DNA of 64,000 nt from Nitrospinaceae bacterium. Lineage in GTDB: Bacteria; Nitrospinota_A; UBA7883; JAJDBK01. Location of the stretch: contig JAJDBK010000045.1 of NCBI GenBank assembly GCA_029261405.1, positions 1 through 64,000 on the forward strand. Reading direction: 5' to 3'. Made by a program: the position numbers and the translations under genes. The number at the start of each line of letters is the position of its first letter. The stretch's first letter is position 1. The notes beneath the pieces are model-generated. The model was not told where the DNA came from. It searched no databases and saw only the letters and a list, made by a program, of their open reading frames with translations. Of this stretch, positions 25,921 to 62,724 are shown piece by piece.

Positions 25921-28683
25921 ATGTCGTCCGACATAATTTTTGAATTCAGATCATCGGCTTTCGATGATGATACATTCTCGGTTCTTGATTTCACCGGTTT
26001 TGAGTCGATATCGAGGTTGTACCAGTTTGAGATAAACCTGGTCTCCGAATCGGGTGAGATCGACATTGAAAAAGTAGCCAACCACGACGCTACATTCGTT
26101 ATGGGTGGCGCAAAATTCCACGGTATCATCCAAAGTATCAAATACTTGAACATGATTCGGGGTATATATTATTACGAAGCGGTATTAGTTCCCCGGTTAT
26201 GGTTATTGACGTTACAGGAGCGCAACGAGATCCATACCGGTGAGACAAAAGACAACGTAACGGTTCGTCATTTGCTGGAGCAATCTTTCAAGCAGAAGGA
26301 TATTTTTTCTGGTGGGCTCTCATCGGAGTCGGATTACAGGTTGCCTTCTTATAGCGACAGCCTCGATTTTGAATGGAGCATGATCTGTCAGTACCAGGAA
26401 TCGACATTCGATCTGATATCACGATGGATGGAGCGTCTTGGTGTTTATTACTATTTTGACCAGGACGAAACCAGTGGCAAAGAGCGGCTAATTGTATCGA
26501 GCCGTTTTAATGAGCAGAAAGATATTGATATTCCGATACCGTTTCGTCAGATGGATCAGTTATCGACAAAAGGTCAGAATGAGTCGATTCGGGCGTTCAT
26601 ATGTGACAGGAAACGACTACCTCGAAAGGTTATTCTCACCGACTACAACTACATGGACGCTGGAAAACCGATCAGGGTCGAGTCGGAGGTTTCGGAAACC
26701 GGTATTGGTGAGAAACAGTTTTACGGTGAGAACCTCGTTGACGCCAGAGCAGGCTCCGGTTTGGAGCAGGCTCAGCAAATGGCCAATATCCGCGCTGAGG
26801 AGATTTCGTGTCGCGGAACTCTGTTTCATGGTGAAAGTTCCTCATCCCAAATACGTTCCGGATTTTATTTCAAACTATCGAATCATTACCATGACGAATT
26901 CAACGATAAACGGTATCTGGTGACCCAAATCAAACATGAGGGGTCGCAGAAGGATTCGGTATTATCGACCGCACACAGGGAACATGATGAACATGTCAGG
27001 TCTCCCTTTTATATCAATACGTTCGAGGCCATTTCCGAAGGTGTGCAATTTCGACCTGAGCGGTTCACGGAGAAACCCCGGATAACAGGTTCGATGAGCG
27101 CAACGATCTTCGGTGAAGAGGAGGCGGAACACGCCGAGCCGGACGAGTTTGGACGGTACAGGGTTTTGCTACCTTTTTGGAACGATGAGAAGGAGGGGAA
27201 GAAGACATGCCGGATAAGGTTGCTTACTCCTTCTTCGGGTAGTAACGGACAGGGGGTCGCATTTCCCTTGCGTAAGGGTACCGATGTTATCCTAAGTTTT
27301 ATAGATGGTGATCCGGACAGGCCGATAATAACAGGCGCTGTTCCAAACTCGATCAATGAAGCTGTTGTTACAGACAAGAACGCCACCGTGAGCAGGATTT
27401 CAACCGAGGGCGGCAATGAGATCAAGCTTGAAGATAAAGATGAAGGTCAGTTTGTAAGCGTCTCCGCCCCGGAGGAACAGAGTTATCTCAACCTTGGAAA
27501 ACCTCACACGGAGTGCACGACAATCTCCGGGAGACTTGAGAGGGCGGAAAAGGCGGAGACGAAAGCTGTCGAAGCCAGGAAGAACTCCGAAGCGAACCTG
27601 GCAACAAAACAGAAGGAGCTTAAAAACGCGGAAATTAGGTGGAGTAGAGCAGACGTAGCATGGTCAAACGCCATAAGAGAGGATGGTGATAAGGGGCCGT
27701 ATGGAATGCTCGGACGTGATAAAGAATGGAAAGAATATAAAGCGGCAAAAGAAGCGAAGAAACTGGCACAGAGAGCTTTGGATAACGCGAATGCCGATCT
27801 CGGCGCCAAAACCGCCGCTGAAACCGCCGCGAAAGATAAACTTGAAAAAGTAAAAGCGGATGAGGCCAATGCAAAACCTCGCGCTCATGTGGATATGAGA
27901 TCCAGCGCAGAGGTAGAGCTTGGAACGGATGGTAATAATCGTGTTCGAGTCCGGGAGGGTGGTTTAAGGATTGATGTCGGACCGGAAGCTGACAAGGAGG
28001 GGAAAGAGGTCATCATCAGCAAGGAGGGAATGAAGATCAACGTGGAGGAGAACCTCTGGATCGAGGTCTCGGACATGGACACCACCGCCAAGGAGAAGGT
28101 CGAGTTTAACGTTACGGGCGACGAGGGAGAGTTTGTAGTCTCATCAAAAGGTGAGATAAAGATGGACGCGGACAAAGAGATAAAAATTAACTGCAAAGAG
28201 GATATGATTTTCAAGACCCCAAAAAAGATCGAGCTGGAATCGGAAGAGGGGTGTCATGTCAACTGGGGACATCACGCTCACCATATCTACACAGGCACAT
28301 TAATCGAAGAGACTTATGGCAACATCCTTGAAATGAAAGGGGCTTCGGTGGAGGATTTCCATTTTGGAGAGTCGTTTGAATTATTTGCCGGCGCGTCCCA
28401 GAGTATTGACCTGATTGAAAAACTTGATATCTGCGTAGGGTTTAAACAGGAAATCGACATAGCTGGAATCCTTGAGATCTTCGTAGGACTAAAACTGGAG
28501 CTGGCGCTGGCTGGAAAAATAGAGGCGGTATTTGGAAACGTGGTCGAATTGCACGCCGCCGGGAAGTGGCATTTCTCACCATTGGCCGATGGTGAGGTTG
28601 TTCCTTTTAAACAGAAGGTTAAAGGTCTTGGCGCCGCATTGATGGGACTAAAGGTCGAGAATTCGGGTTTTCATTCACAGTAG
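25921..28683 (+). CDS. vgrG: T6SS spike protein VgrG with coiled-coil insertion
   Basis: A 920-residue VgrG. The gp27-like part spans about 1-370. The OB-fold follows (about 395-480; 'DEFGRYRVLLPFW', 'LLTPSSGSNGQG', 'DGDPDRPIITGAVPNS'). Residues ~533-653 are an Ala/Lys/Glu-rich helical insertion, predicted coiled coil, placed before the needle. From ~655 the beta-prism (DUF2345-like) repeats 'VRVREGGLRIDVG' and 'KGEIKMDADKEIKINC'. The last ~120 residues are mildly hydrophobic and unrecognised. A GAGGGG site lies before the ATG. It begins the tip module; no T6SS sheath or baseplate genes are in the window. Confidence 0.9.
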   Translation: MSSDIIFEFRSSAFDDDTFSVLDFTGFESISRLYQFEINLVSESGEIDIEKVANHDATFVMGGAKFHGIIQSIKYLNMIRGIYYYEAVLVPRLWLLTLQERNEIHTGETKDNVTVRHLLEQSFKQKDIFSGGLSSESDYRLPSYSDSLDFEWSMICQYQESTFDLISRWMERLGVYYYFDQDETSGKERLIVSSRFNEQKDIDIPIPFRQMDQLSTKGQNESIRAFICDRKRLPRKVILTDYNYMDAGKPIRVESEVSETGIGEKQFYGENLVDARAGSGLEQAQQMANIRAEEISCRGTLFHGESSSSQIRSGFYFKLSNHYHDEFNDKRYLVTQIKHEGSQKDSVLSTAHREHDEHVRSPFYINTFEAISEGVQFRPERFTEKPRITGSMSATIFGEEEAEHAEPDEFGRYRVLLPFWNDEKEGKKTCRIRLLTPSSGSNGQGVAFPLRKGTDVILSFIDGDPDRPIITGAVPNSINEAVVTDKNATVSRISTEGGNEIKLEDKDEGQFVSVSAPEEQSYLNLGKPHTECTTISGRLERAEKAETKAVEARKNSEANLATKQKELKNAEIRWSRADVAWSNAIREDGDKGPYGMLGRDKEWKEYKAAKEAKKLAQRALDNANADLGAKTAAETAAKDKLEKVKADEANAKPRAHVDMRSSAEVELGTDGNNRVRVREGGLRIDVGPEADKEGKEVIISKEGMKINVEENLWIEVSDMDTTAKEKVEFNVTGDEGEFVVSSKGEIKMDADKEIKINCKEDMIFKTPKKIELESEEGCHVNWGHHAHHIYTGTLIEETYGNILEMKGASVEDFHFGESFELFAGASQSIDLIEKLDICVGFKQEIDIAGILEIFVGLKLELALAGKIEAVFGNVVELHAAGKWHFSPLADGEVVPFKQKVKGLGAALMGLKVENSGFHSQ

Positions 28684-28698
28684 GTTATAGGCACAATA

Positions 28699-31500
28699 AT
28701 GCGGATAATAAAACCGAAACAGCTAAGCCTGCTCTACAAGGTGTATGAAGAAGGTTCCGAATGCAGACTGATGGTGGCTGTAATGGGAATGTTCTCCTTC
28801 GACAGACCCTCCACGATCCTCCCTGAGGGTGATTTATGGGCCATGGTTGGGGAGACCATAGGTAAAGAATCACCTATAGATATGATAATGCCAAAACCTG
28901 TGGGGGAGATTGTTGTAGCGGGCAAATGTTTTGCCCCGGGCGGTAAACCTGTTGAATCTATGGATGTTAGCGTTAACATGGGTCCGATTCATAAAACGAT
29001 TAGGGTGACAGGTGACAGGTTCTGGAGAAAAAGTTCTCTGGGGGGATTTGACATGACTAACGCCAAAGCGTTTACTGAAATGCCGATCACCTGGCAAAAC
29101 GCTTTCGGCGGCGATAAACATGAAAGCAACCTTCAGGGTAAGGGTTTTCCAACAGATAAAATGAAAGCGGGCAAAGTTCCGTGGCCTCTGCCCAATATCG
29201 AAAACCGGAACCACCTTATACAAAAACCGGAAGATAATCCGCCACCTGCATGCCTTCTCCCGCTCGACATAATGTCCCCGAAACGAATGTCGAAACTCGG
29301 AACTTACGATAACAAATGGAAAAAAGAGAAGTTCCCCGGATTTCCAGAGGATATGGATTGGACCTATTTTAATATTTCCCCCGAAGATCAGTGGTGGGAA
29401 GGCTTCTTTAAAGGAACCGAAAAGTTCGAGATAAGCGGGATGCACCCTGAAAAACCGATGGTATCCTCCAACCTCCCCGGTATCGGCGCGCGCTGTTTTA
29501 TGACAAGGGAACGGGAACCGAAAAAGCTCGAAGAGCTTGAAACCCGACTCGATACAGTTTTTATCTTCCCGGAAACAGAAGCCGCAATAGCCCTTTTTCG
29601 GGCGGACGTAATAATAGATAGTGACGACGCCACCGACATCCCGGAGTTCATGGCGGGGTTTGAGAAACTCGACCAGCCAAAATCCAGTGAACATTACGAA
29701 GATACCTTTGCGAGATGGACGCACCCGGAACACGCATCTGTATACCAGCTAAAAGAAGAGGATCTTCTACCCCAGGGAGAACCTGTCACTTCGTCTGATA
29801 TCCAGAAACAGATAGAAGAAGTCACAGATATTCAAGGTATTGCCTCAGAGAAAATGAAAGCGAATGCGGAAAAGAAACTGGGTGAAGCCAAGGATAAGAT
29901 AAAAGAGAGGTTCGATAAATTAAAGTCGTTGGGAGTCGATATTCCTCTCCCGGGTATGCCCGAAATACCTGACACAACTATACCTGAGACCAAAAAGATG
30001 AGTACGGATGATTTTATCAATTTCGCCACTCAGGACCGTGAAGATCTGCTAAGCAAATATAAAGAACTTGCCAAAATAAAACTGGCCGAAGCGGAAGAGA
30101 AGAAGAAGGAAGTTTTTGACAAGCTAAAGAAAATGTCGGAAAAGCATGGTCTTGACTATGAAGAAATGCTTAAAAAAGCTGAGGCTGGAAAGAAAAAGGG
30201 CGCGCCACTCTTTAAAGCCGATGATGTCATGGAGAAGTTCAAGAAGTTTGAAAAACTAAACCCGGCTTCCAAAAAGGCTTTGGAAAACGCGGGTGTGAAC
30301 ATTGAGGAGCAGTTCGGTTCGCTTAAGGACGCGGTGGGAAAAGGGAATCTTGCGGAGAAACTGAAAATGGCGGAGAAGAATTCCGCCGATATGTACAGGA
30401 AATTCGCTCACAAATACCCACCATCAGAGCCGCTCGACCCTTATACCCTTGAACAACTCAAGAAACAGCTACTTGAAGGAAAAGAGGAGGGTAAGAGTTT
30501 TTACGGATGGGATTTGACCGGGGTTGATCTGGCGGGGCTGGACCTCTCCGGGATTGACCTTAACAACACATTTCTTGAGGGCGCCAATCTTGCCGGATGC
30601 AACTTTACAGGCGCCAACCTGGCCCGCACAGTCCTCACCAGAGCAAATCTTTCAGGATGCGACTTTACCGGCGCAAAACTGATGGAGGCGAATATCGGGG
30701 AGGCGAACCTTTACGGCGCAAAACTCTCTCCAGCAGGGTTAACTGGCGTAGTGATTGAAAAATCAGACTGTACAGGGGCCGATTTTTCAGGGGGCGATCT
30801 TGGCGGAATAGATGTGAATGACCTTTCCACCAGTTCCCCGGTGGAGTTAGCACAGGTCTCTTTTAACTATACAAAGCTGACCGGGGCCAATTTCAGTAAA
30901 ATTTCAGCCAAAAGCGCATTCTTCCTTGAGGCTGATCTTGAAGGCGCCAATTTCAGTGGAGCCTCTCTTACAAAAGCGACTTTCATAAAATCAAATCTTA
31001 ATAACGCAGATTTTTCTGAAACTTCCATGAGCGGTTCTACAGTCATTGAATCAGAAGCTGACGGTATCAGTTTCTCCGGCGCACATCTGGAGGGTGTTGC
31101 GTTGGTGAAAGGAACTTCGATGCAGGGCGCCAATTTCAGCAATGCGAAAATAAACCGCTCAAACTTGCGAGAAGCGAACCTTGAAAAAGCGAACTTTACG
31201 AAATCGCTACTGGATGAGTCAGATTTTAGCGAAAGCGACATGAAAGGCGCCGACCTGAGCTTCTCGTCAGCCACACGGACCCGTTTTCAGAAAACGGACC
31301 TCACAGGCGCGGTGGTAGCGCATGCAAACCTGACAGAAGCGTTGATGATGAAAACGATTCTGCACGATACCGACCTGACCGGATCGAACCTGTTCGGCGC
31401 CGAGCTGATAAAAGCGAAAATAAACGATAAGACCAATTTCAGAAACGCCAACCTCAAGCGGACCAAAATCGAAGAGTCAGAGGAGCCGGAGAAACAATGA
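28699..31500 (+). CDS. DUF2169-helical-pentapeptide repeat fusion, T6SS accessory
   Basis: A 933-residue protein. Residues 1-~340 match DUF2169 (for example 'ITWQNAFGGDKHESN' and 'GARCFMTREREPKKLEELE'), a domain found beside VgrG and PAAR-type genes and thought to help load cargo. Residues ~370-600 are charged helices rich in Lys/Glu. Residues ~600-925 are a pentapeptide-repeat beta-helix of A(D/N)(L/F)xx units ('GANLAGCNFTGANL'). It starts 15 bases after vgrG and overlaps the next gene by ATGA. The pentapeptide segment could be an adaptor surface or delivered cargo. Confidence 0.85.
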   Translation: MRIIKPKQLSLLYKVYEEGSECRLMVAVMGMFSFDRPSTILPEGDLWAMVGETIGKESPIDMIMPKPVGEIVVAGKCFAPGGKPVESMDVSVNMGPIHKTIRVTGDRFWRKSSLGGFDMTNAKAFTEMPITWQNAFGGDKHESNLQGKGFPTDKMKAGKVPWPLPNIENRNHLIQKPEDNPPPACLLPLDIMSPKRMSKLGTYDNKWKKEKFPGFPEDMDWTYFNISPEDQWWEGFFKGTEKFEISGMHPEKPMVSSNLPGIGARCFMTREREPKKLEELETRLDTVFIFPETEAAIALFRADVIIDSDDATDIPEFMAGFEKLDQPKSSEHYEDTFARWTHPEHASVYQLKEEDLLPQGEPVTSSDIQKQIEEVTDIQGIASEKMKANAEKKLGEAKDKIKERFDKLKSLGVDIPLPGMPEIPDTTIPETKKMSTDDFINFATQDREDLLSKYKELAKIKLAEAEEKKKEVFDKLKKMSEKHGLDYEEMLKKAEAGKKKGAPLFKADDVMEKFKKFEKLNPASKKALENAGVNIEEQFGSLKDAVGKGNLAEKLKMAEKNSADMYRKFAHKYPPSEPLDPYTLEQLKKQLLEGKEEGKSFYGWDLTGVDLAGLDLSGIDLNNTFLEGANLAGCNFTGANLARTVLTRANLSGCDFTGAKLMEANIGEANLYGAKLSPAGLTGVVIEKSDCTGADFSGGDLGGIDVNDLSTSSPVELAQVSFNYTKLTGANFSKISAKSAFFLEADLEGANFSGASLTKATFIKSNLNNADFSETSMSGSTVIESEADGISFSGAHLEGVALVKGTSMQGANFSNAKINRSNLREANLEKANFTKSLLDESDFSESDMKGADLSFSSATRTRFQKTDLTGAVVAHANLTEALMMKTILHDTDLTGSNLFGAELIKAKINDKTNFRNANLKRTKIEESEEPEKQ

Positions 31501-32546
31501 CAAGAGATGAACTGCTCCGTATGAACCAGTCGGGTGAACCTGTCCCGGACGCTGATCTTACCGGTGTGGACCTTTCAAACGCCGACCTCTCCGGTGGGAT
31601 TTTTGAAAATAGTTGTTTCGTAAACGCCAACTTAAGCGGCGCCAACTTTGTGGAATCAATTTTCACCAATTGCAGTTTTGAAGGGGCTAACCTTTCGGAT
31701 CTGAACATGCGCATCTGCACCATGACAAAACCTAACCTGAAGAGAGCGTTGTTTAAAAACGCCGCTATTCGTGGATCGACCATGCTTGGGGCTGACCTTA
31801 CGGAAGCGAATATGGAGGGAGTAACCCTCTTTTGTAGCAACATAATAAATTCAAACCTTACAAAAACAGATTTCAGCGGAGCGGACCTGACCAGGGCTAA
31901 CCTCGCGGAATCTACAATGGATAACACCATATTCGAGAAGGCTGACCTGACCAAGGCGACTCTCTATAAAATTGATATAAGTAGCGCCAGGGTACGGTCG
32001 GCAAAGTTTCATTTCACAACACTTGTGAAGGCGAAAATAGGGGCTATCGATTTTTCCGGGATGAGTTTGAACCACGTCCAGTTTGGTGAGGCGGACCTTA
32101 CGGGGGCGGATTTTACAGGGGCCGACATAACCCAGGCCGGATTCGTAAAGGCGAACCTTGCAGGCGCAAAACTTCTGAACACCAAGGCGACAGGCGCAAT
32201 GTTCGTTGGCGCCAACGTCAAGGATGTCGATTTTAGCGGCTCCCTGCTCCAGCAATCTGTATTTATGGACGCCAGAGCGACCGGGACAAAATTTAACCGG
32301 TGCAACCTTCAGCAAGCGCAGTTCGGCAAGGCTGATTGCGCCGAAGCCGATTTCTCACAATCTGACCTGACCTACGCCGATTTTTCCCACGCAAACCTGA
32401 CCTCAGCCGATATGAGGGGAACAACTCTGTTCAGAACAAATCTGCACAAGATAAGGGAAGAGAAGAGTGAGTGGGATAATGCTGACCGCGTACTGGCCCT
32501 CGGTGAAGACCCGGACAGAACTGAATCTGAAAACTGGCTATCATAG
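31497..32546 (+). CDS. Pentapeptide repeat protein
   Basis: A 349-residue protein made almost wholly of pentapeptide repeats ('DADLTGVDLSNADLSGG', 'GADLTEANMEG', 'EADLTGADFTGADITQ'), with short non-repeat caps at both ends. It is a right-handed quadrilateral beta-helix by family. It is translationally coupled to the DUF2169 gene (ATGA). The C-terminal half of that protein is the same repeat type, suggesting duplication. No signal peptide is present. Function is unknown; a T6SS role comes only from context. Confidence 0.85.
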   Translation: MTRDELLRMNQSGEPVPDADLTGVDLSNADLSGGIFENSCFVNANLSGANFVESIFTNCSFEGANLSDLNMRICTMTKPNLKRALFKNAAIRGSTMLGADLTEANMEGVTLFCSNIINSNLTKTDFSGADLTRANLAESTMDNTIFEKADLTKATLYKIDISSARVRSAKFHFTTLVKAKIGAIDFSGMSLNHVQFGEADLTGADFTGADITQAGFVKANLAGAKLLNTKATGAMFVGANVKDVDFSGSLLQQSVFMDARATGTKFNRCNLQQAQFGKADCAEADFSQSDLTYADFSHANLTSADMRGTTLFRTNLHKIREEKSEWDNADRVLALGEDPDRTESENWLS

Positions 32547-32561
32547 ATGGAGGATAACGGA

Positions 32562-33200
32562 ATGAGTCAACATGCAAATATAACCACAGCCCTGGAGGAG
32601 GGGGCGGTATTGACCTGCGAAGGTAATATAATTCTGGTGCAAGCTGAATCGGGGGTTTATACGGCAAAACGTTCAGCGAGTTGTCTGCTGAATCCGGCTC
32701 CGGGTGACAAAGCGTTGTTATATACCGGAGGAGAGAAGGGCGCTTTTGTTCTTTCGGTGCTGGAGAGGAGTACAGGGGTTCCGAACTCTATCAGAATAGA
32801 GGGGGATACCGATCTATGTGTGATTGATGGTGAGTTAACGATATCCGCCAGGGATGGTGTCGATATTGGCTCCCCGGAGAAGATTTCGATCAGTTCGGAC
32901 CGGTTTGATCTGGGGGCGAGGGAAGGAAGCGTAATGATCGATAATATGTCTTTCGTCGGAAGTCTCCTCTCAGCCCATGTAGGCATGGTGAAACTGGTCG
33001 CAAAAACATTCGATTCAGTTCTGGACCGGCTCTCCCAACGCCTGAAACGATACTACAGAACCGTCGAAGAGATAGAATCGCTCAAAGCGGACATGATCCA
33101 CTACACTGCAGAGAGAGCGTTGGTGGCCAATGGTGAAAATACGATAATCACCGCCAAAAAGAACATCAAAATCAACGGCGATCTCATACAGATAGGATAA
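32562..33200 (+). CDS. DUF3540 family protein, T6SS accessory
   Basis: A 212-residue protein recognised as DUF3540, which co-occurs with DUF2169 and DUF4150. The N-terminal half is a beta-rich 'QAESGVYTAKRSASCLLNPAPGD'-type domain. A middle 'ISARDGVDIGSPEKISISSD' resembles the VgrG needle repeat, and the C-terminus has a helix followed by another spike-like strand. Two starts are possible. GGAGG at 32549-32553 sits 8 bases before the ATG at 32562, so I prefer it to the ATG at 32547. Confidence 0.8.
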   Translation: MSQHANITTALEEGAVLTCEGNIILVQAESGVYTAKRSASCLLNPAPGDKALLYTGGEKGAFVLSVLERSTGVPNSIRIEGDTDLCVIDGELTISARDGVDIGSPEKISISSDRFDLGAREGSVMIDNMSFVGSLLSAHVGMVKLVAKTFDSVLDRLSQRLKRYYRTVEEIESLKADMIHYTAERALVANGENTIITAKKNIKINGDLIQIG

Positions 33201-55560: not shown

Positions 55561-56268
55561 TCATTTCGCCTCGAACCGGACCTCTACAGCCGCTTGTTTT
55601 AGTTGAGCCATGATTTTTTCGGCCCGGTCTCTCTCCATGTTTTTTGCCAGTGTCACCGGGAGTTTCGATAGCTTGGCGTCGATTTTTTCCGGGCTGGTTT
55701 TTGACAACTTCGCGAGGTATTGGCACACCTTTTTCCTTGTAGCCTCTGGTACATGTGTAATCACCAGACTACCGGTGGTGGAGACCGTTTTGCGGTCGAT
55801 ACGCTCTTTTATGTCACGCTCTTCTCCCCGTACAATGGCGGCGCCGTAGGCCAGAACCTCCACCGACCCTATGGAGGAGCCTTGACCTTTCGATATCGAT
55901 GAGGTCTCAATTTTCACGTTGAATATCATGGTGGCGCCTTTATCGCCCGCCTCCTGTTTCATTCGGAGAACAGCCTCTCTTCGACCCCGGTCGAGAAGGG
56001 TTTCAAAAGAAATCATTCTGCCGCCAATGATACTTCGAAGGGTAGCGAGGAACCTTTTGAAATAATCTACTGAAACTACTACGGAGCCTGTTACCAGGAA
56101 TGTTTCCCTGATTACTAAATCGGCGGGAAGCGTTTTTGCGGCAACCAGAATAATCTTGCCGAATTCTTCTTCCCGTTTCCTGATGGAGTTGTAGCTCATG
56201 GTCTCCGCAAAACGCCCGAAACCGTAGCCGAGAATTAGCAGGACGAGAAATACGACCAGCTCAGACAT
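55561..56268 (-). CDS. Membrane-anchored YbjQ-family protein
   Basis: A 235-residue protein. An N-terminal membrane helix (2-20) is followed by a YbjQ (DUF74) domain: 'FLVTGSVVVSVDYFKRFLATLRSIIGG', quoted in part, with 'RREAVLRMKQEAGDKGATMIFNVK' (conserved Gly-Ala region) and 'VEVLAYGAAI'. The C-terminal 65 residues ('DRAEKIMAQLKQAAVEVRF') look like an L7/L12-C-terminal-type alpha/beta fold. YbjQ proteins form pentamers of unknown function. It is 3 bases downstream of a second YbjQ gene. Confidence 0.8.
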   Translation of the reverse strand: MSELVVFLVLLILGYGFGRFAETMSYNSIRKREEEFGKIILVAAKTLPADLVIRETFLVTGSVVVSVDYFKRFLATLRSIIGGRMISFETLLDRGRREAVLRMKQEAGDKGATMIFNVKIETSSISKGQGSSIGSVEVLAYGAAIVRGEERDIKERIDRKTVSTTGSLVITHVPEATRKKVCQYLAKLSKTSPEKIDAKLSKLPVTLAKNMERDRAEKIMAQLKQAAVEVRFEAK

Positions 56269-56271
56269 CGA

Positions 56272-56586
56272 TTACCGCAGTTCTACAGCGGTCCCGTATG
56301 CGAAGATCTCCGCCGCCCCCTGGGTGACAGAGGATGTGGAGTAACGGATATTGAGAACGGCGTTGGCGCCCACCGCCTCGGCTTGCCGGACCATCCGTTC
56401 GGTAGCCTCCTTGCGCGACTCCTGTAAAAGCTCTGTATAACCTTTAAGCTCGCCGCCGAAGACATTCTTGAGTCCGGCCATGATATCCCGGCCCACATGT
56501 TTGGCTCGCACCGTGCTCCCCTGCACCAGCCCAAGATGCCTGACAATCTCTTTTCCGGGAATAGTTTCGATATTGGTCAGAATCAT
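56272..56586 (-). CDS. YbjQ-family protein
   Basis: A 104-residue single-domain YbjQ (DUF74) protein: 'GLVQGSTVRAKHVGRDI', 'ESRKEATERMVRQAEAVGANAVLNIRY' and 'AEIFAYGTAVEL'. AGGAGG lies 7 bases before the ATG. It precedes the larger YbjQ protein by 3 bases, suggesting they form mixed or paired oligomers. Function unknown. Confidence 0.9.
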   Translation of the reverse strand: MILTNIETIPGKEIVRHLGLVQGSTVRAKHVGRDIMAGLKNVFGGELKGYTELLQESRKEATERMVRQAEAVGANAVLNIRYSTSSVTQGAAEIFAYGTAVELR

Positions 56587-56618: not shown

Positions 56619-57935
56619 TCAGAACCTGTAACCGATCTGGCCGTATAGTGTCGTTGTGCTAAAATTGTCGGCGTATCGGGTTGTATAGATCGAACTCACG
56701 TCGAGATACTCTTCCTGTGAATAAGAGAATGAAACCGTCCCGTATATATACCTGCTGAACCACCAGGTGGCGTAGAGGTCGTATACCCACTGTTGCATCT
56801 CATTCTCAAGCCCATCCTGGGAGTTGGTCAACCGTGTCACGGCGGCTTCGATGTCTATCTTGTCATAACTCCAGCCTACAGATCCGTAGAGCGACTTGAC
56901 ATTCGCCGTGAACCAGCCAAGATCGGAGTAGCGAAGGTTCCAGCGGGTATTGTAGATGAAATTGTAATTTCTTATGCCGAGATAATATTGGCTGGCGCTT
57001 TTGCTATCTATCTTCCGCTCCCTGCTATCGCCACCTATGTATAACCCGTAGTTCTTTATCGGCCTCACCTCTGCGCTTATTCGCGCGATGGAGTAGTTCT
57101 CCTCGACAAACGAATCTTCACCAACCAGCGGCTCGAACGATTTTTCCCGGTTGATCGCCCGGAAAAGGTTATATGTAAAACTGAACAGAAACATCTTGTT
57201 CGGTCGCCAGTTTCCATGGAGAAGAAGGTTTGTGATTTCCCATCCTTCTGATTCACCTTCCTCATGTTCATATGTATCAACATCGTTATCAAGATCAATC
57301 GACGACTGAAACTGAAACCGCTGTGTGGCGGGCATAAAATAGAAAACGCCGTTCGCCCTCTCCCGGTCGACTTCACCTTTGTAGGTGTCAAGAGCGTAAC
57401 CGCCGGAGGCTCCGAACAGGTCGGAGTGTACAAAAGCGTATCCGCCCCAGGTGAGAAAATCGGTATTGATATTGTCCTCGAAAGGATCAGGTCGGGCGCC
57501 ACCGAAAACACCAACACCATTCTTTTTGTTGAACCAGTATTTTAGATCGAAGCCATCGACGTTCTGGGAGACAAACTCCTCAATGAACGACCTGCCGATG
57601 GTAAGATCCAGGCCGCCAAACATTTTCTTTATCTGCACGTTAGCCTGCAAAAGTCGGTTTTCAGGAATTTCGTTGTTGTAATCGCTGGAGGAAGCTCTTG
57701 CCCGACCATCTATGTTAAGGGAAATGTTGTCGTTGGGTCCCAGTTTTTTCGCCATGTAGCGGTAATAGAGATGAGTTACGTTGACATCTCCGGCGCTGGA
57801 GGAGTCGTCCACCATGTAGTGTCCGAGGGCGAATCTGCCCCGTTCATCCCGATCCTCAATCCGCTGGGCGGCGAAGAGGCTCCCGGCCAGCGTAAAACAG
57901 AGCAGTCCGCTTATAAGTGAAATCCGGTTTATCAT
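56619..57935 (-). CDS. Outer-membrane beta-barrel protein linked to the multihaem cytochrome
   Basis: About 438 residues. A signal peptide ('LISGLLCFTLAGSLFA-AQ') is followed by alternating amphipathic strands rich in aromatic residues and a C-terminal 'LYGQIGYRF' ending in Phe, the outer-membrane assembly signal. The ATG at 57935 (or 57947) fits the signal peptide and a GGATGGG site; the longer frame upstream overlaps the cytochrome. It begins within 20 bases of the cytochrome stop, so the pair is co-expressed and could form a porin-cytochrome conduit (PioAB/MtrAB-like in principle). No close family is recognised. Confidence 0.8.
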   Translation of the reverse strand: MINRISLISGLLCFTLAGSLFAAQRIEDRDERGRFALGHYMVDDSSSAGDVNVTHLYYRYMAKKLGPNDNISLNIDGRARASSSDYNNEIPENRLLQANVQIKKMFGGLDLTIGRSFIEEFVSQNVDGFDLKYWFNKKNGVGVFGGARPDPFEDNINTDFLTWGGYAFVHSDLFGASGGYALDTYKGEVDRERANGVFYFMPATQRFQFQSSIDLDNDVDTYEHEEGESEGWEITNLLLHGNWRPNKMFLFSFTYNLFRAINREKSFEPLVGEDSFVEENYSIARISAEVRPIKNYGLYIGGDSRERKIDSKSASQYYLGIRNYNFIYNTRWNLRYSDLGWFTANVKSLYGSVGWSYDKIDIEAAVTRLTNSQDGLENEMQQWVYDLYATWWFSRYIYGTVSFSYSQEEYLDVSSIYTTRYADNFSTTTLYGQIGYRF

Positions 57936-57952
57936 TTTAATACCCATCCCGA

Positions 57953-60691
57953 TCACTGACACGGCACCGCCAGACTGGCGCCCTGGAACGAAGTCGTGTT
58001 GTGGCAGAGGGAACATGTTTGCGGGCAGGTGACATGCCTGCTCGAATAGTTTTCCTGATGGCACAAGTAACAGTCCGCCTCGTAAGTGGCTCCGGGCCAT
58101 TTCAGCGTACCTCCTCCGCTCGGATGGCAGGTGGCGCAATCACCTCTGATCGCAGAATGAGCCCCGGTGAAGGTCATAGTTGTGTGGGTGTACCGCTTTG
58201 CCGGAGCGAAAACGTAGAGGTTGTGGCAGTCGAGACAGTTGGTGTTGCTCGGACTGTGGAAAAGCGCGTTCCGGTAAAAATCCTCCTGGTGACAATTAAA
58301 ACAGTCGTTTGGCAAGGTTCGGTAGATCCGGTGTTTGTGGCACTGCTGGCAATCGGCGAACCTGTGGCCCCCCTCCAGCCTGAACCCCGTCTGGGAATGT
58401 TTGAACTTGAGTGGCTCCCAGTTGGTCATGTTGTGGCAATCCCCGCAAAGCCGACCGAACTGGTTCTGGTGTGGTGACGTGTGGCACTGCTGGCAGTCGG
58501 GCGAGAGACCGGTATACTCCCCCGCTCCTTTGGTATGGCAGTCGGAGCAGACCAATTGGGCGTGGGTCTGGGTCAGTGGGAACCCGGTCACTTCGTGGGC
58601 TATACTCTTTGGGTCCCACGATGCGGTGTGGTGACACTCGTCACACCCTTTGCCCAAGGCGCCTTTATGTTTGTCCTCTTTGGCGTGACAGTCGTTACAG
58701 CCGATAGATACCGGTTTCCAGACCTTTTTACCCTCAATGAGATGACACTTGTCACACTTGGTTGTGTAGTGTTTTCCGATCAGTGGAAACTTCGTATCGA
58801 GCGTGTGGTCGAATTTATTCGACAGGTCGGTCCAGCCGGTTACCACATGGCACTCGTCGCATTTTTTCGGCCTGAAAACGCCTTTGTGCGGATCGACGTT
58901 GTGGCAACCTGAATTGCTACACAACGTTGTGTTGAACGGTTTGTACCGATTTACCGGAAAACTCTTCCCTTTGTATGCGACCGTCTTCGTGGTCGCTTGG
59001 TGACACTTCTCGCACTTGACCTTGGAGTGTTTCCCCTCGAGTTTGTATTCGGCGGTTTCATGCTTGAAGGTGGTAGGTTTAAAACCATCAACGGTATGGC
59101 ATTCGGCGCAGTCTTTCCCTTTAAACTGACCATTGTGGATGTCGCCCCGTTGCGGAGAGTCGTGGCAACCTGATCCGTTACAGGTAGTACTCACTATAGG
59201 TTTGTATACAACCTCGCCATTACGCTTTTTGATATGGCACTTCTCGCACGCCACATCCTTATGTTTGCCGCTTAGTTTGTAACCTGTGTACGACGGGTTT
59301 GAGTGTTTGAAAACAGATGGTTTCCACCCGGTCTCGTTGTGGCATTCGTCACATTTCCTGCCGACGAACTGGGCGCCGTGGGCCTGGCTACCCCGTTTCT
59401 TCACATCGTGACACCCTTTGGTGGAGCAGGAGGAGGTGTCGATCGGCCTGTAGAGCACAACCCACATGTTTCTTTTGTATTTGGCCGTCTCGGAAGTGGC
59501 GCTATGGCAGTCCTCGCACTTGACCTTAGCGTGTTTCCCTTTCAGTTTAAACCCGGTATACGTCCGGTTTTCATGGCTGAAGATGACCGGCTTCCACCCT
59601 CTCTCAGAGTGGCAGTCGTCACACTTCCTGCCCGCAAACTGAATGCCGTGGATCTGCCCCCGCTCCGATATGTCGTGACATCCGCCCGCAGAGCAAGTGT
59701 CATACTTCTCGACCTTGTAAAGCCCCTTCTTCGCGTCGGGGTGACAAGATGCGCAATCCACCTTCATATGTTTGTACCGGAGCGCGTACCTTGTCTTGCT
59801 GTGGTCGAATTTCGGAACCTTCTTCCAGTCGGAGGTCAGGTGGCAATCCTCACACTTGTCGGAAAGAGCGCCTTTGTGCACATCCTGGGCCTTGTGGCAG
59901 GTGATGCAACTCTCGAACTTTGCAACCCTGAATATCGCTCGCTGTTTGGTGGCGCCTGTGTGGCACTTGGAGCAAGCGACTTTATTGTGTTTCCCATCAA
60001 GCCGATATTTGGTCTGTTTTGTATGGTCGAATTTTACGTCTTGTCCTTTGAAGGAACGGGCGTTGACGTGGCAGTTTTCGCAGGTCTGCTTGAGAGTTTT
60101 TTCGTGGATGTCTTTATGGCAGGAGATACAAGTGGTCTCAAGGCCGAGATATGTAACGGCGCCCGACTCGGTCTTCTTGTTATGACACGCCTCGCACTTG
60201 GCCGTTTTATGTTTGTCTTCAAGGGGATAGTTGGCCTGATTATGGTTAAACTTTGACTGTTTCCCGTCAGGCCAGGCGATCATTTTGAACTTGCGACCCT
60301 TATGGTCAGCATGACACTTTTTACAGTCTTTGGATGTTACCTTCCGGTGGGCGTGATATCCCTTCTTCTCCTGGATTCTGAGTTTGATATCCTTGTGGCA
60401 GTCGAGGCACTTCTCTTCGTTGACCCCACCTCGCAGATCGTGGCAGTCGATACATTTGAGGATGCTATCCCACGGTTTATGCTGTTCGGCCAGATCGCCG
60501 GGAGAAATAAGACGTCCAAACCCGAGACCGATAGACTGGGCGTCTGCGGAAGAGACGAAAAGTGTGGACGTAAAAATCCCGGCAATGAGAACCATGAACA
60601 GGGCTTTGCGCAGAAAACCCGACGTTCCGTTTTTCAACTTTGTATCGATCCCTCCAACTTTCGATGATATTATCTGAAATGGCTCATTCAT
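57953..60691 (-). CDS. Giant multihaem c-type cytochrome (33 haem motifs)
   Basis: About 912 residues with a signal peptide (...'FVSSADA-QS'). I count 33 haem-attachment motifs: 29 CxxCH and 4 of the CX4CH type (CSAGGCH, CSTKGCH, CNGSGCH, CSNSGCH). In the middle, a CxxCH-CX4CH-CxxCH triplet with 'GKHxxVxCxxCH' and 'GWKPxxFxH' spacers repeats four times. Many extra His residues can serve as distal ligands. It is probably periplasmic or outer-membrane-associated, moving electrons over long distance with the barrel encoded just downstream. An upstream TTG would add 7 residues; ATG at 60691 is chosen. Confidence 0.93.
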   Translation of the reverse strand: MNEPFQIISSKVGGIDTKLKNGTSGFLRKALFMVLIAGIFTSTLFVSSADAQSIGLGFGRLISPGDLAEQHKPWDSILKCIDCHDLRGGVNEEKCLDCHKDIKLRIQEKKGYHAHRKVTSKDCKKCHADHKGRKFKMIAWPDGKQSKFNHNQANYPLEDKHKTAKCEACHNKKTESGAVTYLGLETTCISCHKDIHEKTLKQTCENCHVNARSFKGQDVKFDHTKQTKYRLDGKHNKVACSKCHTGATKQRAIFRVAKFESCITCHKAQDVHKGALSDKCEDCHLTSDWKKVPKFDHSKTRYALRYKHMKVDCASCHPDAKKGLYKVEKYDTCSAGGCHDISERGQIHGIQFAGRKCDDCHSERGWKPVIFSHENRTYTGFKLKGKHAKVKCEDCHSATSETAKYKRNMWVVLYRPIDTSSCSTKGCHDVKKRGSQAHGAQFVGRKCDECHNETGWKPSVFKHSNPSYTGYKLSGKHKDVACEKCHIKKRNGEVVYKPIVSTTCNGSGCHDSPQRGDIHNGQFKGKDCAECHTVDGFKPTTFKHETAEYKLEGKHSKVKCEKCHQATTKTVAYKGKSFPVNRYKPFNTTLCSNSGCHNVDPHKGVFRPKKCDECHVVTGWTDLSNKFDHTLDTKFPLIGKHYTTKCDKCHLIEGKKVWKPVSIGCNDCHAKEDKHKGALGKGCDECHHTASWDPKSIAHEVTGFPLTQTHAQLVCSDCHTKGAGEYTGLSPDCQQCHTSPHQNQFGRLCGDCHNMTNWEPLKFKHSQTGFRLEGGHRFADCQQCHKHRIYRTLPNDCFNCHQEDFYRNALFHSPSNTNCLDCHNLYVFAPAKRYTHTTMTFTGAHSAIRGDCATCHPSGGGTLKWPGATYEADCYLCHQENYSSRHVTCPQTCSLCHNTTSFQGASLAVPCQ

Positions 60692-60799: not shown

Positions 60800-61825
60800 A
60801 TGGTTTCACGCACAGACTGGCTTGACGATATCTCGGCTGAGATGGCCGCCGGACAGCTTTTTATTTTCGGGTTCGACGGGGATAGGTATAACCGTCGTAT
60901 AGGTTCCTTTTTCGAAAAGGTGAAACTTGGCGGGGTGATTCTATTCTCCCGGAATATCTCTTCCGCCGAACAGACAAAACGGCTGATCTCTGATTTAAAG
61001 AAACTTGGGGAGGATACCACCGGTCTGCCGCTTTTTGTCTGTATCGATCAGGAGGGGGGGCGTGTGGCCCGGCTGTCTTCCGACCTGCCAACATTCCCGA
61101 CGGCCCGTTCGCTAGGCGAGGATGGTAGTTCAGGCCAAGTTGGGGAGGTTTACGAGAGGATCGGGTCGGAACTTAAAAACCTCGGTTTTAATGTCGATTT
61201 CGCCCCTTGTCTCGATCTTGATACCAACGATGCGAACCCGGTGATCGGCGATCGATCTTTCTCGCGTGACCCTCAGGAGGTATCCCGGCTCGGATTAGCG
61301 GCTATCGAAGGTCTCAGGCGCCAGAAGATCCTTACCTGCGCCAAACATTTCCCCGGTCATGGCGACACGTCTCTCGACTCTCATTTCGATCTACCGGTGG
61401 ACGAACGCTCCAAGAGCCGTTTCGACGAGGCGGAGCTTGAACCGTTCCGCATGTCGATCGCGCAGAAAGTCGATTTTATCATGACAGCGCATGTGATCTA
61501 CCCGGCGTTTGACAAGGTTTATCCGGCGACGTTGTCGAAGAGAATCGTAACCGACCTTTTGCGGGAGAAGATGGGTTATGACGGAATTATCATCGGCGAC
61601 GATTTTGATATGAAAGCTGTTTCAGACCGGTGGGACGAGAAGGGCGCCGCCATCGCTTTTGAGGCGGGGATTGATATGGGCATGGTATGCCACGAGACAC
61701 CGCGCCGCGAAAATCTTTATGAAAGCGTCCGTAAATCGATAATAGAAGGTAGAATAAGCGAGACCTCCGTTAAGGAACGTTTGCACAGAATTATTTCAGC
61801 CAAAGAAAGATTGGAAGAAGTGTAA
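60800..61825 (+). CDS. nagZ: Beta-N-acetylhexosaminidase (NagZ)
   Basis: A 341-residue family 3 glycoside hydrolase of peptidoglycan recycling. 'IDQEGGRVARL', 'NPVIGDRSFS', 'CAKHFPGHGDTSLDSH' (His/Asp dyad loop) and 'IIGDDFDMKAV' (nucleophile Asp near 267) are diagnostic. No signal peptide, as expected for a cytoplasmic NagZ. It overlaps the globin sensor gene by one base (TAATG). Confidence 0.95.
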   Translation: MVSRTDWLDDISAEMAAGQLFIFGFDGDRYNRRIGSFFEKVKLGGVILFSRNISSAEQTKRLISDLKKLGEDTTGLPLFVCIDQEGGRVARLSSDLPTFPTARSLGEDGSSGQVGEVYERIGSELKNLGFNVDFAPCLDLDTNDANPVIGDRSFSRDPQEVSRLGLAAIEGLRRQKILTCAKHFPGHGDTSLDSHFDLPVDERSKSRFDEAELEPFRMSIAQKVDFIMTAHVIYPAFDKVYPATLSKRIVTDLLREKMGYDGIIIGDDFDMKAVSDRWDEKGAAIAFEAGIDMGMVCHETPRRENLYESVRKSIIEGRISETSVKERLHRIISAKERLEEV

Positions 61826-62724
61826 TGCCTGAGATAACAGAACTTTTGCACGAATACGGTATAGACCGGTTCGACCTGGACAATATCAAGATCGCCGCCC
61901 CGAAACTTCTTGCGCGAAAAGAGGAGTTGGCGGACTTCCACTACGCCGCTCTTATGGGTAAGAGTGGTACCGCCCATTTTTTCCCCAACGAAAAAATCAT
62001 GGTGAAAGCGCGACACGCCTTTATCAACTGGGTGGAGCTACTTCTGAAAGCTGAATACAACCACGCATATTACCTCACCGTCAACCGGGCCGGCACCATG
62101 CATGTGAGGATTTCCCTGCCGAATTCCCATGTCAACATCGCCATGCAGAGGGTACGCCGGTACCTGAATGACGCGATATCTGAAGATTTCGCCGACTCCC
62201 CCGAGACGGCTCTACGGATAGGGAGATCACTTAACAAGGTACTCGATCTTAACCTCGACATTCTTACCCGCTCGTATCGGGAAGAGGAGATGAAGATCAG
62301 CTTCTTGAGCTACAAGGTGGACAGCATGGCCCTTTACCTTGCGAAACGGGTTGTGAGCGGATTTAACATGGCGCTGGTCCTCGGCCTGATAGTAATCGGT
62401 GTGATGGTGGTGGGGCTATGCCTGCACGATTTTTCCCGCCTGTTCGACGCTGGCGGTCTGGAACATGGTGTTTTGGGGGCTTTGGGGTCGCTGTTGATTT
62501 TGTGGGTCATTATCGAGCTTCTCGACACCCAGATAAAACATATGAAAGGGAGCGAGTTTGCGATCAAGGTTTTTGTATCGGTGGCGTTGGTAACAGAACT
62601 TCGGCACGTCCTGATTATTTCGATTGAAGGCGCCACCTGGATACAGGAAGCTGTGCTGGCCGGTACAGTTCTGGTACTCGGAATTATCTACTGGCTAGTC
62701 TCACGGGTGGACCACTCTTCCTGA
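61825..62724 (+). CDS. Globin-coupled membrane sensor (GsGCS-like)
   Basis: A 299-residue protein. The N-terminal ~170 residues form a protoglobin/sensor-globin domain: 'EELADFHYAALMGKSGTAHFF', 'YYLTVNRAGTMHVRISLP' and 'VLDLNLDILTRSYREEEM' (quoted separately). His93 in 'MHVRI' corresponds to the proximal haem ligand; His64 is a candidate distal ligand. The C-terminal 120 residues hold four membrane helices of PsiE-like type. Length and architecture match the Geobacter sulfurreducens GsGCS. It should bind haem and a gas or redox signal and pass it to a membrane partner that is unknown. Confidence 0.85.
   Translation: MPEITELLHEYGIDRFDLDNIKIAAPKLLARKEELADFHYAALMGKSGTAHFFPNEKIMVKARHAFINWVELLLKAEYNHAYYLTVNRAGTMHVRISLPNSHVNIAMQRVRRYLNDAISEDFADSPETALRIGRSLNKVLDLNLDILTRSYREEEMKISFLSYKVDSMALYLAKRVVSGFNMALVLGLIVIGVMVVGLCLHDFSRLFDAGGLEHGVLGALGSLLILWVIIELLDTQIKHMKGSEFAIKVFVSVALVTELRHVLIISIEGATWIQEAVLAGTVLVLGIIYWLVSRVDHSS

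Follow-up and report, generated by a model that had tools for sequence, protein, structure and literature searches.

A 64,000-nucleotide stretch of DNA from a Nitrospinaceae bacterium (assembly GCA_029261405.1, contig JAJDBK010000045.1, positions 1 to 64,000; hereafter, the window) carries on its minus strand two neighboring genes that encode a giant multihaem c-type cytochrome (57953..60691) and an outer-membrane beta-barrel (56619..57947, or 57938). We consider this pair likely to be a two-gene, trans-outer-membrane porin-cytochrome conduit for extracellular electron transfer that is related to PCC3, and its cytochrome apparently represents a merged form of two separate PCC3-like cytochromes. 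This interpretation is based on features of the sequences, i.e., the secretion signal, the haem and ligand counts, the modules, the predicted barrel, the co-inheritance of the two genes, and the merged domains. The pair was compared within a class set of 23 genomes, in which G000 is the genome of the window and G000–G003 make up its lineage.

The cytochrome gene extends from an ATG at 60691 to a stop at 57953 and encodes 912 amino acids, including a putative Sec signal peptide, read from the sequence, without a lipobox (residues 1–51, ending in ...FVSSADA before QS; 60539..60691). It contains 29 CX2CH and four CX4CH motifs (CSAGGCH, CSTKGCH, CNGSGCH, and CSNSGCH), whereas 2000 shuffles of the mature protein gave means of 0.43 CX2CH and 0.41 CX4CH, and never more than three of either. 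Thus, the 33 haem motifs counted in a preliminary description of this DNA are confirmed, as is its density of about one haem per 28 residues (27.6, or 26.1 without the signal peptide). The four CxxCH-CX4CH-CxxCH triplets reported there are also real, and they correspond to modules 4–7 (58847..59839), with CX4CH as the middle haem site, of 11 tri-haem modules that span the entire protein. Each module has 3–4 spare His residues (36 in total, compared to 33 haems), usually in the contexts FxH, GKH, or DxHxG. Judged by their motifs, the modules are composed like bis-His cytochrome-c7-like tri-haem units, each with three CXnCH sites and at least three candidate distal His. Consistent with this, the Pfam family Cytochrome_C7 matches the protein in five stretches (1.5e-30). 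Full-length relatives have 30, 33, 36, 39, or 42 haem motifs, with one count of 32 and a shorter form of 18 motifs in G002, and modules are visible as insertions in their alignment. Because these counts are nearly all multiples of three, the tri-haem module appears to be the unit of gain and loss.

When a profile of the class cytochromes was compared to solved structures, the only matches were GSU1996 (3ov0; 5.5e-6) and 6r2q_A, the latter being a weak match in the C-terminal part that is partly driven by haem motifs. We take 6r2q to be the MtrCAB complex and its chain A to be MtrA, which is named otherwise in the results table. GSU1996, with 12 haems in four domains, is likewise a chain of tri-haem modules; it is not known to be paired with a barrel. 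Membership of the window cytochrome in the DmsE/MtrA and HmcA families was rejected, with scores far below the curated cut-offs.

The downstream gene encodes a protein of about 440 amino acids with a signal peptide, 22 predicted strands, and a C-terminal ...GYRF. Its start at 57947 or 57938 leaves 5 or 14 bases between it and the end of the cytochrome gene, in agreement with the distance of less than 20 bases noted earlier. In relatives, the earliest possible start of the barrel gene and the stop of the cytochrome gene overlap or are at most 3 bases apart, which suggests, short of proof, translational coupling. An AlphaFold2 model of the barrel (18 class members) has 22 strands, a mean pLDDT (predicted local distance difference test) of 82, and a pTM (predicted TM-score) of 0.72. 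The best Foldseek matches of this model are outer-membrane barrels of other sizes, with a top TM-score of about 0.5 to the wide FimD pore. All complete class barrels have a signal-peptide-like start and an aromatic final residue, the latter being usual in outer-membrane barrels. No family was matched in a Pfam search of the barrel, and no relative was found in a sequence search of the PDB. Assignment to MtrB_PioB (PF11854) was rejected, with no match in either the window barrel or the window genome. Barrels of the MtrB/PioB family, a second and unrelated type of conduit, were found in eight other genomes of the class or phylum (G006, G007, G008, G009, G011, G018, G019, and G023).

The two genes are inherited together. 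The barrel is present as a single copy in 20 of the 23 class genomes (in G022, the gene is divided over two contigs and so appears as two pieces), and a giant cytochrome lies directly upstream in all 19 loci with readable upstream DNA. The cytochrome head domain was found in 18 of the 20 barrel-carrying genomes; in the remaining two, the cytochrome runs off the contig end. Both the barrel and the head domain are absent from G005, G006, G010, and the outlying G023. The survey of co-occurrence proposed in the preliminary description therefore gave consistent pairing and joint absence. The pair is kept across four families, and the genes beyond it vary between families. Immediately after the window barrel, two YbjQ-family proteins are encoded side by side (55561-56586, minus strand); these were not seen beside the pair in relatives.

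Beyond the phylum, the class barrel profile detected diverged barrels in 17 genomes (E 1e-6 to 1e-31); a profile search with a three-row barrel alignment had matched only one relative that was already known. A multihaem gene was found within the fetched few kilobases at 19 of 20 distant barrel places, mostly adjacent, and the exception lies near a contig end. Barrel homologues that occur without cytochromes, which had been named beforehand as evidence against a conduit, are thus not what was observed. PCC3 was defined by He et al. 2017 (PMC5566968) as an inner-membrane protein (five transmembrane segments, SGXXG, and two HX13H motifs), a cytochrome of about 20 haems, a second cytochrome, and a porin. 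All of these components, including the two HX13H motifs and SGXXG of the inner-membrane protein, are present in four of the distant clusters (L075, L076, L081, and L089), whose barrels are matched by the class profile at E 1e-8 to 1e-22. Plasmid pEMTOL02 of Emticicia oligotrophica encodes a porin, hit by the class profile at 6.6e-18, together with 23-haem and 40-haem cytochromes. Here, the identification of clusters as PCC3 is based on gene order, motifs, and mutual homology rather than on comparison with published PCC3 sequences. The plasmid of this Bacteroidota species carries a complete PCC3-like cluster (L132, 78-90 kb) of ccsA, the inner-membrane protein, an iron-sulfur (Fe-S)/NAD(P) protein, two cytochromes, and the porin. 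At another locus (L093:6905-12001), an open frame that is truncated where the fetched stretch ends has at least 69 haem motifs in 1699 amino acids.

The modules and head domain of the single large cytochrome were compared to the cytochromes of these clusters with the CXXCH letters masked. The conserved head domain (FGRLISPGDL...H...C..CH; 60206..60520), common to the first cytochrome of PCC3-like clusters, has only two kinds of match: first cytochromes (independent E-values of about 1e-12 to 1e-19) and the single, fused cytochromes of L080 and L082 (1e-12 to 1e-20 over both kinds). Mean masked scores favor first cytochromes for all of modules 1–8 (58631..60538; 24 haems), whereas in the C-terminal part (modules 9–11, 57956..58630; 9 haems) modules 9–10 favor second cytochromes, which are on the barrel side of PCC3-like clusters. 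For any one module, the score difference mostly amounts to a few bits, so the position of the junction between the two parts, near residue 687, is approximate; the ten modules that can be assigned nevertheless follow a consistent pattern. In the barrel tree, the class and two other loci with single cytochromes are set apart from the barrels of split PCC3-like clusters (support 0.99). Locus L074, which has a truncated cytochrome of a type that is not assignable, falls on the class side.

Based on these comparisons, the window pair is most similar to PCC3 in the homology of its porin, head domain, and second-cytochrome-like C-terminal modules to clusters with PCC3 anatomy, as well as in its very high haem number and repeat build. 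The head domain and modules 1–8 agree with the ~20-haem periplasmic multihaem cytochrome of PCC3, and most of the class has a homologous inner-membrane protein. In contrast to PCC3, which has a separate gene for the extracellular multihaem cytochrome, the window encodes one fused cytochrome, its porin is smaller (22 predicted strands vs. up to 42 reported for PCC3), its cluster has no inner-membrane protein, and the barrels are on a separate branch. The description of 33 haems as among the higher counts for one chain holds in general, but this number is ordinary for PCC3, in which the medians are 34 for outer cytochromes (up to 85) and 21 for the others (PMC5566968). Similarly, the pairing supports a porin-cytochrome conduit, whereas the preliminary term "new type" was too strong, given that the barrel, the cytochrome domains, and the inner-membrane partner of most of the class are homologous to PCC3-type clusters. 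Judged by sequence, what differs from PCC3 is the presence of two cytochromes as one chain and a window genome without the PCC3 inner-membrane protein.

Similar arrangements exist in other systems. PCC3 clusters also occur in Gallionellaceae (PMC10734462), and the S13 porin of Burkholderiales is preceded by 24-haem and 49-haem cytochromes (PMC7399161). The S13 locus resembles the window in having large, module-variable cytochromes directly before the porin, proposed as molecular wires, but it has two cytochromes and its porin was found with an OmbB-based model. Large cytochromes before a porin and their proposed role as wires have therefore already been published (PMC5566968, PMC7399161, PMC10734462). 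In a search of the literature, with supplements and subscription papers outside its scope, we found no description of the fused single-cytochrome form, or of such a system in Nitrospinota-labelled genomes. Geobacter Pcc (OmbB-OmaB-OmcB) and the two-gene pcc of Anaeromyxobacter and Kuenenia (PMC4245776) combine a porin with a periplasmic multihaem cytochrome, as in the window, but the periplasmic protein has 8–14 haems and no fusion. Compared by haem numbers rather than by OmbB sequence, the window pair differs from the 8-haem plus 12-haem composition of Geobacter Pcc. A gene order similar to these Pcc clusters (barrel, 8-haem, 9-haem) was found at L085, a very distant relative of the barrel. 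MtrAB, MtoAB, and PioAB share the principle of a cytochrome held in a barrel, whereas the window barrel has no MtrB_PioB match. MtrB has 26 strands and MtrA has 10 haems; the nine haems of the C-terminal modules are similar in number to the latter.

In the proposed mechanism, modules 1–8 would extend through the periplasm as a long chain of haems, and the nine C-terminal haems would lie inside the barrel, as MtrA does in MtrB, carrying electrons across the outer membrane. Electrons would then pass between the cell and the outside, either outward, to reduce a substrate outside the cell, or inward, by being taken up from it. More tentatively, and with the balance somewhat against it, the single polypeptide may provide one continuous chain of haems that starts in the periplasm next to the inner membrane, passes through the barrel, and reaches the cell surface, with a length tuned by gain or loss of whole tri-haem modules and without a separate periplasmic carrier.

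Several observations weigh against a PCC3-related conduit, the most important of which concerns the electron route at the inner membrane. The PCC3-type inner-membrane protein is encoded in 15 class genomes (identities of 28–34% in the alignment, mostly 33–39% in local BLAST), with an adjacent Fe-S/NAD(P)-binding, flavin-like protein in 14 (47–51% identical to the Emticicia one), and both lie within some kilobases of the pair in four genomes (L026, L027, L028, and L031). Close homologues of these two proteins were not found in G000–G003, and none is encoded beside the window pair; the best paralogue of the inner-membrane protein in G000 scored 1.1e-17, compared to 4e-92 or better in 14 relatives. 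Because these close homologues are missing from its lineage, the window system is a cytochrome-barrel pair without the usual inner-membrane module, which is the main gap in the mechanism. Furthermore, module 11 is assignable to neither type of cytochrome, the AlphaFold2 model of the cytochrome, built without haems, is too poor to use (pLDDT 45, pTM 0.23; fold not predictable), and the function of PCC3 itself has been described as unverified (PMC12442390). Two weak paralogues of the inner-membrane protein in G000 adjoin other multihaem genes, one of them about 11 kb past the window on the same contig. This place (L134:2400-6026, 72.4-76.0 kb of contig C45) encodes a cytochrome with 11 motifs, a probable cyclic-nucleotide-binding protein, and a third protein that has two HX13H motifs and is weakly related to the PCC3 inner-membrane protein; contig C73 of G000 carries a similar set with an 8-haem cytochrome.

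The missing module could indicate that the pair is a remnant in the lineage of the window, in which loss of the inner-membrane protein took the electron route with it and left the genes to drift, and the shorter G002 cytochrome with its 18 motifs would fit this. We regard such decay as very improbable, given that both reading frames are intact, the 33 haem sites and at least three spare His per module are retained, the pair persists across four families, and the weakly related inner-membrane proteins of G000 stand beside multihaem genes. The ordinary signal peptide, with neither a lipobox nor a surface anchor, would also suit a soluble periplasmic electron store or carrier, with the barrel being a general or solute porin that is merely in the same operon. 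The closest solved relative by profile is the c7-type polymer GSU1996, and such polymers are known as periplasmic proteins. An ordinary porin should be found elsewhere as well, yet in the class this barrel is never without the cytochrome, the diverged barrels of other phyla likewise have multihaem genes next to them, and the C-terminal modules are similar to the cytochrome that lies on the barrel side in PCC3-like clusters, making a soluble carrier unlikely. The similarity of the barrel to the FimD usher pore raises the question of an export channel, through which the cytochrome would pass and then build a surface layer or a filament outside the cell; the variation of its length by whole modules and the long C-terminal extensions in some relatives are compatible with this. 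Neither a plug nor usher-type periplasmic domains nor filament motifs were seen in the 440-amino-acid barrel, and characterized porin-cytochrome complexes transfer electrons as membrane complexes (PMC4245776), so that export, too, has little probability compared to an electron conduit.

Elsewhere in the window, a gene at 61825-62724 (plus strand) encodes a protein with a protoglobin domain at its N-terminus and a PsiE-like membrane domain at its C-terminus. Genes at 25921-33200 (plus strand) encode a VgrG/GPD-like protein, a protein with DUF2169 and pentapeptide repeats, a second pentapeptide-repeat protein, and a DUF3540 protein, and have the appearance of a spike and cargo module for type VI secretion.

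If the conduit interpretation is correct, the pair would be a minimal two-gene electron conduit, in which the cytochrome may cross both the periplasm and the outer membrane in one chain. Questions about PCC3, such as which cytochrome fills the pore and whether the periplasm is spanned, would be easier to test with two genes. The presence of the pair would also suggest extracellular electron transfer in this Nitrospinota-labelled lineage.

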